Positions 100-5,776 of a stretch of DNA of 5,776 nucleotides are shown piece after piece (the first letter of the stretch is position 1; every line of letters begins with the position of its first letter). The translations under genes and the position numbers were made by a program. Under the pieces are notes generated by a model. That model did no database searches. It saw nothing but the letters and a program-made list of their open reading frames with translations, and was not told where the DNA came from. This DNA comes from Candidatus Sumerlaeota bacterium (GTDB taxonomy: Bacteria; CG03; SLGR01), in NCBI GenBank assembly GCA_007136585.1, contig SLGR01000247.1, positions 1 through 5,776 of the forward strand. The letters are read 5' to 3'.

Positions 100-336
100 A
101 TGAAGCCGGTTCCGGTTCAAGGGAGTTATAAAATAATGGAGAAAGAGATCCTGAAAGAGACAGAGGTGGGTGATAACCTTTACGTGGGGTCTGTGCTGCG
201 CGGAGATAATATTGAGTTCGTGGTTTCTACATACGAATCCTCAACGAGCTTCCTGTTCAGTTTCCGGGAATGGGAGGAGTTTGTAAAATGTGTGAATATG
301 GCAAACAGGGGGTACAAGCAGGAAATCCGTGAATGA
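100..336 (+). CDS. Small hypothetical protein, first gene of the operon
   Basis: I do not recognise this 78-residue protein. It has no signal peptide or membrane segment and looks like a small soluble alpha/beta domain. Its N-terminal half is charged and strand-rich (VGDNLYVGSVLRGDNIEFVVS, in two strand-like stretches), followed by a serine/threonine turn and a helix built around FSFREWEEFVKCVNMAN (residues about 53-69). Two starts fit. ATG at 100 has GGAG only 4 bases upstream. ATG at 136 has GGGAG (121-125) 10 bases upstream and would give 66 residues starting MEKEILKE; the extra 12 residues of the longer form look less protein-like. The stop overlaps the start of the adenosyltransferase gene by 8 bases, implying coupled translation. 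The strand-then-xEWxxF pattern resembles other tiny domains such as DUF397, but that is a look-alike only. Confidence 0.72.
   Translation: MKPVPVQGSYKIMEKEILKETEVGDNLYVGSVLRGDNIEFVVSTYESSTSFLFSFREWEEFVKCVNMANRGYKQEIRE
320..331 (+). promoter_or_regulatory. Ribosome binding site and GTG start of the adenosyltransferase
   Basis: AGGA (320-323) lies 5 bases ahead of the GTG at 329-331. The nearby ATG at 333-335 is in the wrong frame, and the next in-frame ATG lies deep inside the protein, beyond the P-loop, so GTG is the only sensible start. The site sits inside the end of the preceding gene. Confidence 0.75.
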
Positions 337-859
337 TAAAAGCGGAAAGATACACATATATACCGGAGACGGAAAAGGAAAGAGCACGGCAGCTGCGGGA
401 CAGGCCCTCAGGGCCGCGGCGGCCGGTTTTAAAGTAGCTCTGCTTTACTTCTGTAAAGAGCCCCGTTCCGGGGCCGGAGAGACCGGCCTCCTGGAAAAAT
501 GCGGAATCCGCGCGGAGTTTTACGCGCGCGGGCATCCCGGGTGCGGGGAATCGCCCCCGTTAAACGAACTGAGGAAAGATGCCGCTGCGGGTATGGATCG
601 GGCGGCGGAACTTTTACAGGCAGGCTCTACTGATATGCTTATACTTGACGAGGTTATAGTGGCGGTCCGTGACGGAATAATCCGCGAGGAGGATATCTTC
701 GCCCTTATGGACCAGGCTCGTGAGGAGACCTTTCTTATACTTACAGGAAGGGGGGCAACCGGGAAAATGATTGAAAAGGCGGAGCTGGTAAGCCGGATAG
801 AGGACGTAAAACATCCTTTTAAAAAGGGTGTCCGGTGCCGGACCGGTATAGAAATATGA
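329..859 (+). CDS. cobA: Cob(I)alamin adenosyltransferase, CobA/CobO/BtuR type
   Basis: This cytoplasmic enzyme transfers the adenosyl group of ATP to the cobalt of a reduced corrinoid, making adenosylcobalamin or its precursor. The 176 residues fit the family. The P-loop GDGKGKST is at 13-20, Walker B-like MLILDE at 103-108, LTGRG at 138-142, and the C-terminal signature VKHPFKKGVRCRTGIEI at 160-176 matches the family ending (VKHxFxxGxxxxxGI[DE]). The N-terminal arm of about 25 residues found in Salmonella CobA is absent; the protein begins directly at the first strand, as in many short bacterial and archaeal members. The FTW stretch that helps displace the lower cobalt ligand in Salmonella CobA (Phe91, Trp93) is replaced here by HPG (69-71). 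Cysteines lie at 42, 58, 72 and 170. The gene overlaps both neighbours. No other cobalamin gene and no cobalamin riboswitch is in view. The family call is firm; substrate preference (cobalamin or cobyrinate) is not. Confidence 0.93.
   Translation: MNDKSGKIHIYTGDGKGKSTAAAGQALRAAAAGFKVALLYFCKEPRSGAGETGLLEKCGIRAEFYARGHPGCGESPPLNELRKDAAAGMDRAAELLQAGSTDMLILDEVIVAVRDGIIREEDIFALMDQAREETFLILTGRGATGKMIEKAELVSRIEDVKHPFKKGVRCRTGIEI
824..858 (+). promoter_or_regulatory. Start region of the fusion gene: weak RBS, hairpin, two possible starts
   Basis: AAGGG at 824-828 is followed 6 bases later by GTG (835-837). An in-frame ATG (856-858) forms an ATGA overlap with the stop of the adenosyltransferase but has no Shine-Dalgarno of its own. 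CCGGT (832-836) and ACCGG (842-846) are inverted repeats with a 5-base loop. That hairpin would bury the GTG and bring the AAGGG to an effective 12 bases from the ATG. Both starts give a plausible signal peptide. I chose GTG because of the binding site. Confidence 0.45.
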
Positions 860-2934
860 GAGCGGCAGCGCTTCTTGCTTCGCTTATGGTCCTTTTTCCG
901 TCCGGGGCGGTTTCTTCAGAGCCCGGCGGCTCGGAACTTCTCTCCGGGGTAAGGACGGAGTATTCACAGCTCAAGACCTACAGCGCCAGTGTTGAGATAG
1001 ATATGGAGCTGGTATCTAACCGCCAGGCCCCCAACCGGGTCTCTTACGTATCCGATATATTCTTTGATTCCAAGGGAAGGTTTGCCGTCATGAACAGGTA
1101 CGGGCTGATGGGTAAATCAATTATATCCGACGGGGAGGATATGTGGATTTACCTTCCGGCTCTCAGAAGATACACAACACTGGATCCTCCCCCTTCAGGT
1201 ATAGAGTATCTTGCGGCAGACCCTTCTTCCATTGATACAATAGGCACTGAGCGTTTTCTTCTTTTTTCTCTCTTATCGGGGCAGCTGGACCCGCCTGAAG
1301 AGGATATAACAAAGATATCGGGGGAACTTGACGGGGTTCCCTGCGAGATCCTTGAATTCAATTACGGGGAACCGCTTTACCGTGTCTGGATAGATACTTT
1401 TTCGAAAAAAATACTTAAACTTGAACTTGAGACGACACCCAGGTTCCGTATGGCGGACGAGGTTCACGAAATGTCTTTCAGCTACTCCGAAGTACATACC
1501 CGGGTTGAATTTGACAGCATACTCCCGGAGGACGTCTTCCGGTTTAAGCCCGCGGCCGGGGACGAGGCAGCTGACGAACTGTACCTTATGCGCCAGTACG
1601 AAGAGGCTCTGTATATAGGCGACGAACTTCCGCTTTTCAGCTTCACTCCTCTCGGGGAAAGGAGGGAGCTTGATATTTCCGATCTCACAGGGGAGTACCC
1701 GGCGTTGATGGTTTTCTTCTGGGATTCGCAGAGCCCCTCATCCGGGAGAATGGGCAGGGCCCTTTCGGAGATAGCCTCAGAGAGCGATATACCTGTAATA
1801 GGGGTCAACCCTTCTGACGGGAGACGGGAGGCCGCCAGGTTTATCCGAGAAAACGGGTTTGATTTCCCCGTTGCGCTGGACGAAAACAGGGAGATATCCG
1901 AGAGGTATATGGTGGACTCATACCCCACTCTTTTCATAGCCTCCGGCGGAAGGATAAACCACATATATACCGGGTTTTTTGACGGGCTCCGGAGCAAGAT
2001 TTACGAGGATATACAGCATCTTGCCGCTCCGGAACGGCGGCGCCGGAGGGATAAAGGTTTTTCGCGGAAATGGCACGCCGATATAAAATCCTCAGGGATA
2101 ACTTCCGCGGGCGGATCGCTTGTCGCCCTTACAGTCAGCGACGAGTTTTATTTTATCGGGCCTTCCGGGCGCATTCGCAATGTAAAGGAAAGTCCCGAAG
2201 GGCTCAGAAGGCTTGTCGGAGCCGGGGATGACGGGGGATTTGCGGCTTACAGGCAGAGGGGAAGAAAGGTGGCTTTTTTTGACTCAGACGGAGATATCTC
2301 CTGGAGTTATGATACCTCAGGAGGGTTAAACATCCTTGGGTTCTACAGGAATAATTTTATTCTCGGTCAGAACTCATCTGACGGAACAGCGCTTATAGAC
2401 CTTGAGGGGAAGAAGGTCTGGTCAAGCACCGCCGTTGCCTCGGCCCTTCACGCTTCTGCCGGGGATCTTGACGCCAGGGGCGAGACAGAGGTCGCGGCCT
2501 CGGACGGGAGCAGCAGTCTCTATATAATAGGCTCCGGGGGAGAACTCCAGTCCTCCATAAATACGGAAATGAAACTGGAGTTTTCACAGATACTGGGAAG
2601 CAACAGTATACTGATTTCGGGGTCCACAAGGGGTAACCAGATACTCTCGCTTGTTGACAGCCAGGCGATGCCCGTCTGGGAGATAATACTCGGGGTGGAG
2701 GGTACCGCCAGGGTGACGGTATGCCGCCAGCATCCCCTGAAAGACTGGGTGGCGGTAGGAACGCTTGACGGCCAGGTATTTGTCTATGACCTTTCCGGGG
2801 ACCTTCTTGCCTACAGAAGGGAACGGGGAATGGATGTCCAGCTGGACTGGTTAGAGGTTGCCGAAGGGCAGTATATGCTGGCGACTTCTACGGTTGAGGG
2901 AGGGGTGACCTGCTACAGTGTAGTAAAGGAGTAG
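835..2934 (+). CDS. Exported LolA-like / cysteine-less thioredoxin / beta-propeller fusion protein
   Basis: This protein has 699 residues from the GTG start (692 from ATG 856). An N-terminal signal peptide (about 1-28: basic R4, R6, R9, then AAALLASLMVLF and a VSS-like cleavage site) sends it to the periplasm or beyond. Residues about 33-242 resemble the LolA-like/DUF2092 periplasmic fold: ISDGEDMWIYLPALRRYTTL at 97-116, a VWIDTFSKKILKLEL strand pair at 184-198, and the closing LPEDVFRFKPAAGDE at 230-244. Residues about 253-398 are a TlpA/ResA-like thioredoxin domain (FFWDSQSPSSGRM at 294-306; YMVDSYPTLFI at 358-368 with the expected cis-proline P364). The active site is SPSS (300-303) in place of CPPC, and the domain has no cysteine, so thiol chemistry is excluded. 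A basic linker RRRRR (401-405) follows. Residues about 410-699 form repeated strand blocks of a PQQ/WD-like propeller, including a GDLDARGETEVAASDG block like FG-GAP repeats. Likely role (inferred): binding or sensing of a lipid, glycan or protein at the envelope. Confidence 0.85.
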   Translation: MPDRYRNMRAAALLASLMVLFPSGAVSSEPGGSELLSGVRTEYSQLKTYSASVEIDMELVSNRQAPNRVSYVSDIFFDSKGRFAVMNRYGLMGKSIISDGEDMWIYLPALRRYTTLDPPPSGIEYLAADPSSIDTIGTERFLLFSLLSGQLDPPEEDITKISGELDGVPCEILEFNYGEPLYRVWIDTFSKKILKLELETTPRFRMADEVHEMSFSYSEVHTRVEFDSILPEDVFRFKPAAGDEAADELYLMRQYEEALYIGDELPLFSFTPLGERRELDISDLTGEYPALMVFFWDSQSPSSGRMGRALSEIASESDIPVIGVNPSDGRREAARFIRENGFDFPVALDENREISERYMVDSYPTLFIASGGRINHIYTGFFDGLRSKIYEDIQHLAAPERRRRRDKGFSRKWHADIKSSGITSAGGSLVALTVSDEFYFIGPSGRIRNVKESPEGLRRLVGAGDDGGFAAYRQRGRKVAFFDSDGDISWSYDTSGGLNILGFYRNNFILGQNSSDGTALIDLEGKKVWSSTAVASALHASAGDLDARGETEVAASDGSSSLYIIGSGGELQSSINTEMKLEFSQILGSNSILISGSTRGNQILSLVDSQAMPVWEIILGVEGTARVTVCRQHPLKDWVAVGTLDGQVFVYDLSGDLLAYRRERGMDVQLDWLEVAEGQYMLATSTVEGGVTCYSVVKE

Positions 2935-2937
2935 GGC

Positions 2938-2974
2938 GGAGTTTTTATGAAAAGGAGGTTTTTTTAAAGGTATG
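2938..2974 (+). promoter_or_regulatory. Double ribosome binding site with a T7 run ahead of the binding-protein gene
   Basis: GGAG (2938-2941) lies 5 bases before ATG 2947. AAAGGAGGT (2951-2959), a near-perfect Shine-Dalgarno, lies 13 bases before ATG 2972, which is long. Between them is a run of seven T (2959-2965). The strong site is itself the AAA AGG AGG codons of the short frame that begins at 2947. Confidence 0.7.
2947..2967 (+). other. Six-codon frame MKRRFF, possibly the displaced start of the binding protein
   Basis: ATG 2947 has a well-spaced GGAG and reads M-K-R-R-F-F before TAA at 2965-2967. The frame differs by one base from the gene starting at 2972. With one T fewer in the run 2959-2965, translation would read MKRRFFKGMFLKVLIG and continue into the lipoprotein, producing a textbook signal peptide with a strongly basic start. 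It could be a sequencing or assembly indel, a real mutation rescued by the inner ATG, or a tiny leader coupling translation. Confidence 0.45.
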
Positions 2975-4234
2975 TTTCTGAAAGTTCTTATCGGCGCGGC
3001 GCTCATAACGGCTTCCGGCTGCGCGCGGGAACCCGATGAAAGGGTTACAGTAAGGTTCTGGCACGGGATAGAGAGCCCCGAGAATAATCTCCTGCTGGAG
3101 GAGAAGGTCCGGGTATTTGAGGAGCGCAACCCTGAGGTCAGGATCAGTCTTGAGAATATAGGAGCTCAGGACCGGGCTATGCCAAGGATAATGACGGCGC
3201 TCAGCGCCGACCGGCAGCCGGAGCTCCTTTGGTTTGCGCCGGTTTACACGGGAAGGCTTGCCGAAAGCGGAAAGCTTATTCCGGCCCAGAGGTTCATAGA
3301 CGAAGACCCCGACTTCAGTACTGAAGATATCTATGAAGGGATCCTTGAATCGGGAAAATATAACGGAAAAATATATACTGTACCTTTTGAAACAAACTGC
3401 CTGGGAATATACTATAACAAAGAACACTTTGAAGCGGCGGGGATTGAAAACCTTCCCGGCACCTGGCAGGAACTGAGAGAAACGGCAGCGCGGCTGACAG
3501 AGTATTTCCGGGAAAAAGGCGATGAGGAGAGTTACGGGATGCTTATCCCGCTGGGGACACAGGAGTGGACAGTCTGGAGCTGGCAGACGTTCCTCTGGCA
3601 GGCCGGCGGAGAGATACTTTCCGAAGATATGACCGAACCGCGTTTCCAGGGGTCGCCGGGGGTAGAGGCTCTCAAGTACTGGATAAGCCTTGTGCATGAA
3701 GACGAATCCGCGGTCTTTTCAGAGAGAAACGCGGGTTACAAAGTAGAGCCGTTTCTCGCCGGAAGGGTATCTATGATGATAAACGGGCCGTGGAACTACC
3801 CCGTGCTTAAGGGTCAGGACGAGGTCAGGTACGGTTCTTTTCCACTTCCGAAGTCAAGGGAGCGGGCAACCAATATCGGCGGGGAGAACCTTTATATCTT
3901 TGAATCAGAACCGGAAAAAGAGGAGGCTTCCTGGAAATTCGCCAAATTTATTATGTCAGAGGAGTTCCAGGTTGAATGGGCAATGAATACGGGGTACCTC
4001 CCCGTAAACCGCAGCGCGGCGGAATCCGAAGAGTACTCGGAGTTTCTGAGTGAGAACCCCTTTATTGAAACCTTCGTGGACTCAATGGAGTTCGGAAGAT
4101 CCAGGCCCCCTGTAAAAGAATACTCAAGACTTTCAGACCGCCTGGGCAGGGCCCTGGAAGAGGCCCTGTACCGGCGCCAGAGCCCTGATGAAGCTCTGGA
4201 GAAAGCAGCGGAGGAAGCCGGGGAGTTTCTTTGA
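2972..4234 (+). CDS. ABC transporter family 1 substrate-binding lipoprotein (MalE/UgpB-like)
   Basis: This is the extracytoplasmic receptor of an ABC importer for a sugar or similar polar solute. Of 420 residues, the first 16 are a short hydrophobic signal ending in the lipobox ASGC; Cys17 would be lipidated, and Ala18 after it gives no Asp signal for inner-membrane retention. Family marks are the opening VTVRFWHGIESP (25-36), FEERNPEVRISLE (49-61), PELLWFAPVYTGRLAESGKLIP (83-104), KIYTVPFETNCLGIYYNKEHFEAAGI (133-158), the GRVSMMINGPWNYP block (264-277) and EFQVEWAMNTGYLPVN (331-346), all usual for SBP_bac_1 proteins. Tryptophans at 87, 199, 202, 204 and 274 suit stacking against sugar rings, but the ligand cannot be named. 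Length is normal. The annotated signal peptide has only one lysine before the hydrophobic core, which may reflect the upstream T7 run (see the entry at 2947). Its stop overlaps the next gene's TTG start. Function is strongly supported; the exact N-terminus is not. Confidence 0.93.
   Translation: MFLKVLIGAALITASGCAREPDERVTVRFWHGIESPENNLLLEEKVRVFEERNPEVRISLENIGAQDRAMPRIMTALSADRQPELLWFAPVYTGRLAESGKLIPAQRFIDEDPDFSTEDIYEGILESGKYNGKIYTVPFETNCLGIYYNKEHFEAAGIENLPGTWQELRETAARLTEYFREKGDEESYGMLIPLGTQEWTVWSWQTFLWQAGGEILSEDMTEPRFQGSPGVEALKYWISLVHEDESAVFSERNAGYKVEPFLAGRVSMMINGPWNYPVLKGQDEVRYGSFPLPKSRERATNIGGENLYIFESEPEKEEASWKFAKFIMSEEFQVEWAMNTGYLPVNRSAAESEEYSEFLSENPFIETFVDSMEFGRSRPPVKEYSRLSDRLGRALEEALYRRQSPDEALEKAAEEAGEFL
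4220..4233 (+). promoter_or_regulatory. Ribosome binding site and TTG start of the first permease
   Basis: GGGGAG (4220-4225) lies 5 bases ahead of TTG 4231-4233, which overlaps the TGA stop of the binding-protein gene (TTGA). The first residues after TTG, KRGRLEPYLYLSPG, form the expected short N-terminus of a MalF-type permease, which supports the rare start. Translation is probably coupled. Confidence 0.75.
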
Positions 4235-5091
4235 AACGGGGCCGGCTTGAGCCGTATCTTTACCTTTCTCCCGGGCTTCTTCTTCTTTTCTTCTTCATAA
4301 TCCTGCCGATTATCCTGCTTTTTCTTCTCTCATTTTTCAGGTGGGATATGCTTTCAGGGAGTTACTCCTTCGCGGGGCTGGAAAACTACAGGCATATGCT
4401 CGGGGACAGGCTTTTTTATAACGCCGCGCGCAATACAGGGCTTTACCTTGCCGGGGTGCTTCCTGTCGGTATTGGCGCAGCGCTTCTTATAGCCGTATCT
4501 GTAAACAGCCGGCTCAGGGTGTATTCGGTATACCGGAGCGCTATTTTCATCCCCGTGATAGTATCCCTTGCCGCCAGCGGGGTAATATGGCTCTGGATAT
4601 ATGATTACAGGAGCGGGATACTCAATCACCTGCTCCTAAGCGGAGGGTTCTCAAGGGTAAACTGGCTCGGAAGCCCCGATACGGCCCTCCTAAGCGTTAT
4701 AATTGTTACGCTCTGGCAGAGGATAGGTTACAATATGATCATCTTTTTTGCCGGGCTCCAGGTCATCCCCCGGCAGCTCTACGAAGCGGCTATGATAGAC
4801 GGGGCCAAACCTCTGGCCCGTTTCCGGTATGTAACCTGGCCCAACCTTCTTCCCACGACCTCTTTTGTTGTAGTGATAAACCTCATACTGGCCTTCAGGG
4901 ATTTCGACCAGATATACGTGATGACCAGGGGAGGTCCGATGAGAAGGACAACCACGCTTGTCTACCATATTTACGAGACCGCTTTCGCCGAGTTTAATAT
5001 GGGCAGGGCCGCGGCGGTTACAATGGTGCTTTTCATGGCGGTTATAACGGCAACCTGGCTTTACCTCCGGTTTTTCAGGGAGGAACCCTGA
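4231..5091 (+). CDS. ABC transporter inner-membrane permease, MalF/UgpA type
   Basis: This is one half of the transmembrane channel that receives the solute from the binding lipoprotein. The 286 residues contain six probable membrane helices: about 10-36, 68-91, 102-123, 150-175, 208-224 and 260-281. The coupling-helix EAA motif (EAAMIDGAKPLARFRYVTWP, 185-204) carries the conserved E185, A186, A187 and G191, and would dock onto the ATPase. PYLYLSPGLLLLF at the start and FRDFDQIYVMTRGGP (222-236) are typical of MalF-family members without the extra periplasmic domain of E. coli MalF. It overlaps the binding-protein gene by four bases and precedes the partner permease by 6 bases. Its ATPase is not in view. 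Substrate specificity rests mainly with the binding protein, so sugar type is unknown. Confidence 0.94.
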   Translation: MKRGRLEPYLYLSPGLLLLFFFIILPIILLFLLSFFRWDMLSGSYSFAGLENYRHMLGDRLFYNAARNTGLYLAGVLPVGIGAALLIAVSVNSRLRVYSVYRSAIFIPVIVSLAASGVIWLWIYDYRSGILNHLLLSGGFSRVNWLGSPDTALLSVIIVTLWQRIGYNMIIFFAGLQVIPRQLYEAAMIDGAKPLARFRYVTWPNLLPTTSFVVVINLILAFRDFDQIYVMTRGGPMRRTTTLVYHIYETAFAEFNMGRAAAVTMVLFMAVITATWLYLRFFREEP

Positions 5092-5097
5092 ATTGAA

Positions 5098-5776
5098 ATG
5101 AAAATAAAACCGGTTATATCTTCCGTTATACTTGGCGCTGTAAGCGCTATCTTTGTATTTCCGTTCATCTGGATAATAATAACCTCCCTTAGGGAGCCCG
5201 TGGATGTCCTGCGTCAGCACTCGATTCTCCTTAGAAGCTTCAGGTGGGAAAACTATATCTCGGCCTGGCGGGCGACGGATTTTCCCCGCCAGTTCCTGAA
5301 CTCCTTTATCGTGGCCGTCTCCGTAACTCTGGGGCAGATACTGACCTCGGCCCTTGCCGGGTACGCCCTTGCCCGTATGAGGTTCCGGGGGCGCCGGGTG
5401 ATTTTTATGACAGTTCTGGCCACCCTGATAATACCGTACCATATGCTGGTTGTGCCGCTTTTTGTTATGCTGGCCAGGCTGGGCTGGGTAGATACATACC
5501 GCGGCCTTATAGTGCCTATGCTCGCAAACGGGTTCGGGATATACCTTTTCAGGCAGTTTTTTATGAAAGTCCCGCTGGAGCTTGAGGAGGCCGCCGCCAT
5601 AGACGGAGCTTCCAGATGGTCCACTCTCTGGAGGGTGGTCTTTCCCCAGGCCCTACCGGCTGCCGGCACGCTTTTCATATTCACTTTCGTAGCCGAGTGG
5701 AACGATCTTTTCAGGTGGCTGATATTCACCCATTCCAGTGAGATGAGGAACGTCCAGCTGGGGCTGAGCGTATTCC
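5098..5776 (+). CDS. ABC transporter inner-membrane permease, MalG/UgpE type (3' end beyond window)
   Basis: This is the second half of the channel. The first 226 codons are present; family members have about 270-280, so about 50 residues are missing. Visible helices are about 7-30, 67-92, 101-125, 134-152 and 186-209. The EAA loop reads EEAAAIDGASRWSTLWRVVFPQALP (163-187), with E164, A165, A166 and G170. The FVAEWNDLFRWLIF stretch (197-210) is the MalG-type WN(D/E) signature. ATG 5098 is the first usable start: no stop separates it from the end, and the upstream frame hits the permease-1 stop TGA at 5089. Its only Shine-Dalgarno-like sequence, AGGGAGG (5077-5083), is 14 bases away, so re-initiation after the preceding gene is likely. 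Both permeases are in the same frame with TGA ATT GAA between them. Confidence 0.94.
   Translation, partial: MKIKPVISSVILGAVSAIFVFPFIWIIITSLREPVDVLRQHSILLRSFRWENYISAWRATDFPRQFLNSFIVAVSVTLGQILTSALAGYALARMRFRGRRVIFMTVLATLIIPYHMLVVPLFVMLARLGWVDTYRGLIVPMLANGFGIYLFRQFFMKVPLELEEAAAIDGASRWSTLWRVVFPQALPAAGTLFIFTFVAEWNDLFRWLIFTHSSEMRNVQLGLSVF

Follow-up and report, generated by a model that had tools for sequence, protein, structure and literature searches.

A conserved LolA-fold, cysteine-less thioredoxin and beta-propeller fusion protein of one bacterial order, with a possible role as an envelope adaptor

What kind of protein is made from a gene that joins a LolA-like, a thioredoxin-like and a propeller segment in a single chain, and does it belong with the solute importer that is encoded next to it? 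We addressed this question for the window (the whole stretch of 5,776 nucleotides that was analysed), which makes up the whole of contig C209 of a 1.88-Mb genome that is 88% complete. The features discussed below are as follows.

329..859, + strand: btuR/cobA, ATP:corrinoid adenosyltransferase (Pfam 5.7e-46); overlaps the fusion gene
835..2934, + strand: fusion gene, LolA-like/pseudo-thioredoxin/seven-bladed propeller, predicted to be exported; GTG start, 699 aa
835..918, + strand: predicted Sec signal peptide, residues 1-28 (by-eye reading of MPDRYRNMRAAALLASLMVLFPSGAVSS; N-terminal helix in the model)
919..1584, + strand: LolA-fold (DUF2092) domain, residues 29-250 (Pfam, PDB profile matches, AF2)
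1606..2022, + strand: ResA/TlpA-like thioredoxin domain without redox cysteines, residues 258-396 (Pfam and ResA profile match)
1720..1743, + strand: degenerate active site W-D-S-Q-S300-P-S-S303, the counterpart of W-A-T-W-C-x-P-C (aligned to L039)
1924..1926, + strand: P364, the cis-proline position of the thioredoxin fold, invariant in 13/13 aligned sequences
2059..2922, + strand: seven-bladed beta-propeller with PQQ/WD40-like sequence, residues 409-696 (28 strands in the model)
2972..4234, + strand: solute-binding lipoprotein (SBP_bac_8, Pfam), adjoining the fusion gene only in G000 (the window's genome) and G001
4231..5091, + strand: ABC permease, MalF/UgpA type
5098..5776, + strand: ABC permease, MalG/UgpE type, cut by the contig end

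The GTG start at 835 gives the fusion gene a 25-base overlap with btuR. In the relatives L063 and L064 the corresponding position has an ATG start with a clear ribosome-binding site; alternatively, translation may begin at an in-frame ATG at 856, which overlaps the stop codon of btuR (ATGA). The predicted signal peptide has no lipobox cysteine (as read by eye from the N-terminus). A frameshift or a chimeric assembly was ruled out as the source of the ORF, since the same open frame was observed in seven genomes. A phage or defence protein was also ruled out, as PHROGs and PADLOC gave no match.

We next considered the N-terminal domain. Pfam assigned residues 35-244 to DUF2092 (PF09865; E 1.6e-6, 28.1 bits against a cut-off of 21.2), with the match spanning model positions 4-207 of 212. 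A profile of the domain gave four sequence matches in the PDB, with LolA in 4/4, and hhalign against the order's own LolA proteins gave 92% over 61 columns. Modelled alone with AlphaFold (pLDDT 85.1, pTM 0.82), the domain could be superposed on LolA 4mxt (VIA Z 15.7, rmsd 3.1, 179 residues; Foldseek E to LolA of 5.3e-10) and on RseB (Z 13.5, 172 residues). DUF2092 has already been connected with LolA (PMC4520260). The literature searched contained no functional study of DUF2092. At the position of the LolA lid-latch arginine, which we take to be R43 of E. coli LolA in an xRP motif, the alignment has a serine in the window protein, and among the seven orthologues an arginine was seen in L008 only. 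Canonical LolA (PF03548) is separately encoded in the window's genome (G000:C77), and its gene is present across most of the order; a replacement of LolA by the fusion protein was considered unlikely on this ground. The order's canonical LolA gene (L086-L090) adjoins genes that, by eye, resemble RodZ and PgsA.

The second domain was assigned to AhpC-TSA (PF00578; residues 261-369, E 4.8e-9, above the cut-off), and a profile of the seven orthologues matched ResA in the PDB at 5e-16. We observed that WATWCNPC of L039 aligns with WDSQSPSS of the window protein; the CxxC of TlpA/ResA reads SPSS here, with S300 and S303 at the cysteine positions. Across the seven orthologues the first-cysteine position is occupied by S, S, S, D, T, E and E, and no orthologue has a cysteine at the second (0/7). 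L004 has a single cysteine, two residues ahead of the first CxxC position. An earlier note on this DNA had called the domain redox-dead, and this was confirmed for the family as a whole, as both catalytic cysteines are missing in 7/7 orthologues. A separate thioredoxin-like protein with a WCPPC motif (L002) is encoded in the window's genome. As this genome has its own LolA as well as L002, the fusion chain is unlikely to replace either.

The LolA part had a mean pairwise identity of 0.29, the thioredoxin 0.27 and the propeller 0.295, and the value fell to 0.21 in the half of the thioredoxin that holds the active site. W615, E616, H633, P634 and W672 are among the invariant residues. Between the congeners L007 and L008, dN/dS was 0.15, 0.13 and 0.25 for the LolA, thioredoxin and propeller parts, respectively; these values are rough because dS (~0.7-1.4) is near saturation. 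Judged by these substitution rates, purifying selection appears to act on all three domains, and the cysteine-less thioredoxin domain appears to be still constrained (dN/dS ~0.13, with dS near saturation).

In Pfam, the propeller was found sub-threshold only (PQQ_2, 2.3e-4), and the seven-orthologue profile matched the PQQ propeller 3hxj in the PDB at 1e-7. In the full-length model (pLDDT 71.6, pTM 0.51), residues 409-696 form 28 strands (7 x 4), and the model matches seven-bladed propellers (Z 27.9, rmsd 2.8, 273 residues). The packing between domains is unreliable at a pTM of only 0.51, and a joint docking surface is thus a proposal. With a propeller-only profile, the sole match from other parts of the phylum was weak and stand-alone (G012, E 9e-14), and the donor could thus not be traced. 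The three folds, their order and the predicted export, as read in the earlier note, agreed with Pfam, the profiles and the predicted structure. Segment-wise profile searches and the structure models also indicated that it had divided 835-2934 correctly.

The full-length three-domain chain was observed in 7/8 genomes of the same order (the window's genome and six others), with 25-40% identity to the window protein; the sole exception was G007 (66% complete). It was absent from the remainder of the phylum (eight genomes), and the whole-chain profile found none outside the order in 386 genomes. In searches with the two-domain profile, the best matches listed were two-domain or differently extended frames, with the C-termini scanned for some of them. 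A peptide-pattern scan of the genome contigs gave no match with the window protein and three matches with a 4-row alignment. The fusion is a real conserved protein made of known modules.

The best matches outside the order included L040-L043, which are two-domain DUF2092-thioredoxin chains with WCxPC, and further two-domain chains were seen among 14 genomes of G295's phylum. L044, also outside the order, has WSEPC and an N-terminal extension. L039 has WCNPC, a different C-terminal extension and a position directly after a CcdA/DsbD_TM gene. The CxxC homologue thus adjoins a CcdA/DsbD_TM gene in one genome, G089, a neighbour that would suit a redox-active form. The seven orthologues form one clade (100/100), and five of the relatives compared keep WCxPC; the root of the tree was not fixed by an outgroup. 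The fusion is a cysteine-less, propeller-extended variant of the known DUF2092-TlpA fusion. The earlier note had considered the domain order possibly novel, and the three-domain chain was indeed found only in this order (386 genomes, whole-chain profile). However, it is less isolated than was implied, since its first two domains are a widespread CxxC-bearing fusion and thioredoxin-propeller fusions are already known (NHLRC2/SOQ1). We also observed that L039 (733-4236) and L062 (6844-10971) share a DUF2092-thioredoxin arrangement (WCNPC) that continues into a long C-terminal extension and whose gene comes immediately after a DsbD_TM gene; the L062 chain has 1130 aa.

The recurrent partners of the fusion gene are btuR and metF. 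btuR lies directly upstream in 5/7 genomes; in G004 and G006 the fusion gene is kept, btuR is not detectable and a ~490-aa gene stands in its place (this gene is also in G003, there upstream of btuR). metF was seen downstream of the fusion gene in 6/7 genomes, the window contig ending too early to show it. It comes directly after the fusion gene in G002, G003, G004, G005 and G006; in G001 the transporter cassette stands between the two. metF was not detected anywhere in the window's own genome (which is incomplete), and the loci contained no cobalamin riboswitch.

Several other genes were noted upstream of these loci. A 78-aa ORF at 100-336 of the window had no Pfam, NCBIfam or PADLOC match and shares 61% identity with a segment that precedes btuR in G001 (L029 ~7967-8152). 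LpoB-type lipoprotein genes were seen in three families (L029 3917-5195, L031 47-628 and L032 14211-15472; assigned by Pfam for L029 and L031 and by resemblance for L032), accompanied in the three families by a larger lipoprotein-like gene and an FAD-linked oxidase. In G003 and G004, a MATCAP-family gene, an ATP-grasp gene and an unnamed ~490-aa gene form a conserved run (L030 550-4426; L032 7566-11422).

The solute importer beside the fusion gene had been raised as a possible sign of a joint system. The conserved-neighbourhood check did not bear this out, as only 2/7 genomes, both of one family, have the cassette next to the fusion gene. In these two, G000 and G001, the binding protein and the two permeases are 73-80% identical (window 2972-5776; L029 10787-13761), whereas the fusion proteins are 29% and btuR 39% identical. 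In G001 an ATPase follows the permeases, and then metF. The difference between 73-80% for the cassette and 29% for the fusion indicates that the cassette has a separate history, and the simplest reading of these sequence identities is that it entered or was exchanged separately. That the fusion protein is an accessory of the downstream ABC importer would fit the same strand and the 37-bp gap in the window, and the repeated gene order in G001. We nevertheless consider it extremely improbable, given the identities above, the five other genomes in which the cassette is not beside the gene, and G002, which is of the same family and has metF directly after the fusion gene.

We tentatively propose, with a probability of roughly 45%, that the fusion protein is a secreted, probably periplasmic, non-enzymatic adaptor, in which the LolA pocket would hold a hydrophobic ligand or lipoprotein and the other two domains would dock proteins. 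This reading follows from the analogy with ligand binding by the LolA fold and with the NHLRC2 cleft. LolA-fold proteins mostly bind hydrophobic ligands (PMC6363788), and in NHLRC2 the cleft between the TlpA-like thioredoxin and the propeller is the proposed site for a ligand or partner, the thioredoxin domain being without insulin-reductase activity (PMC6107167). The protein would have come from the widespread redox-active DUF2092 (LolA-fold)-TlpA fusion, or from a common ancestor with that fusion, with CxxC as the probable ancestral state; within the order, both thioredoxin cysteines would have been lost and the seven-bladed propeller gained. The ligand of the LolA-fold pocket is most likely hydrophobic (either lipid or lipoprotein acyl chains), the non-redox thioredoxin fold and the propeller would most likely be a protein-docking surface, and the protein may hold or present its ligand or client in the envelope. 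We infer the ligand from the fold, and the function from the ligand. VioE is an enzyme with a LolA fold, and the substrate that it binds is non-lipid. The adaptor reading does not account for the stable gene neighbours, which encode cytoplasmic enzymes of B12 and folate metabolism, and this speaks against it. It would be a long shot that a redox fusion gave rise here to an order-specific exported adaptor without redox activity, with a hydrophobic or cofactor ligand and a role in connecting the envelope with the B12/folate one-carbon metabolism encoded by the flanking genes.

Other functions suggested by the LolA fold were also evaluated. In an RseB/MucB-like sensor of envelope stress or lipid, the LolA fold would sense lipid or a mislocalised lipoprotein and the other domains would signal to a membrane partner. 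Structurally, RseB (Z 13.5, 172 residues) is one of the nearest matches and likewise combines a LolA fold with a second domain, and lipid signals are reported to antagonise MucA-MucB binding (PMC7400510). Fold similarity is no demonstration of function, however, and the scanned loci gave no recognisable sigma factor, anti-sigma factor or sensor kinase; we regard such a sensor as unlikely. A lipoprotein or lipid shuttle of the LolA type with a special client set would agree with the LolA fold being modelled at high confidence, but canonical LolA is separately present in the same genome and the lid arginine is lost in 6/7. We hold this to be rather unlikely, and LolA-like lipoprotein handling by the fusion is doubtful because the lid arginine is kept in 1/7.

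Two further readings start from the neighbours and from the divergence of the chain. The position of btuR suggested an exported corrinoid- or cofactor-binding protein feeding the btuR/metF pathway, like BtuG, the B12-binding propeller of Bacteroides (BtuG proteins are surface B12-binding lipoproteins; PMC6143338, PMC10404256). The btuR overlap in 5/7 genomes, metF next in the six readable ones, the seven-bladed propeller, and the B12-binding domains and FecCD/BtuC-type permease found in the order are consistent with this. It is weakened because G004 and G006 have the fusion gene without detectable btuR and the loci have no cobalamin riboswitch. The protein also has no lipobox, hence is not a surface lipoprotein, and BtuG was not among the PDB matches listed, which is weak evidence and does not exclude BtuG. 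Such a role appears very improbable to us. A constrained relic, i.e. a former redox protein kept without a specific ligand or partner and with an incidental operon position, could account for orthologues that diverge fast (25-40% identical to the window protein) and for neighbours without an obvious link, but it is improbable for a chain that is full length and uninterrupted in seven genomes and seems to be under purifying selection in all three domains.

It appears that, within one bacterial order, a redox-active envelope fusion has become a conserved non-redox protein with a propeller. The non-redox adaptor that we favour offers a defined and testable protein in a lineage with almost no biochemistry, and its ligand, if found, would suggest a role for the DUF2092/thioredoxin fusions.

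When compared with known systems, the window protein shares a (probably periplasmic) beta-propeller and a weak sequence match with BamB and the PQQ-type propellers. BamB is an eight-bladed lipoprotein, whereas the window protein has seven blades and no lipobox. With LolA it shares the fold of residues 29-250 (Z 15.7, and all four PDB sequence matches), but the family has extra domains and has lost the lid arginine in 6/7. RseB/MucB also joins an exported LolA-fold domain to another domain; that second domain, however, is neither a thioredoxin nor a propeller, and no counterpart of the partner anti-sigma factor was recognised at the loci. NHLRC2/SOQ1 share a TlpA-like thioredoxin followed by a propeller, and NHLRC2 (6gc1) was in the Foldseek list for the window model, with a poor superposition (rmsd 22.3). 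NHLRC2 has six blades, a CCINC motif and no LolA domain (PMC6107167), in contrast to the seven blades seen here, and the CC(I/V)NC motif of NHLRC2/SOQ1 is absent from the aligned region. The two-domain DUF2092-TlpA/redoxin fusion (PF09865 and PF00578; L040, L041, L042 and L043) begins with the same two domains, identically ordered, and aligns with the window protein over ~400 residues; it keeps WCxPC and is without a propeller, while the window protein has SPSS and a propeller.
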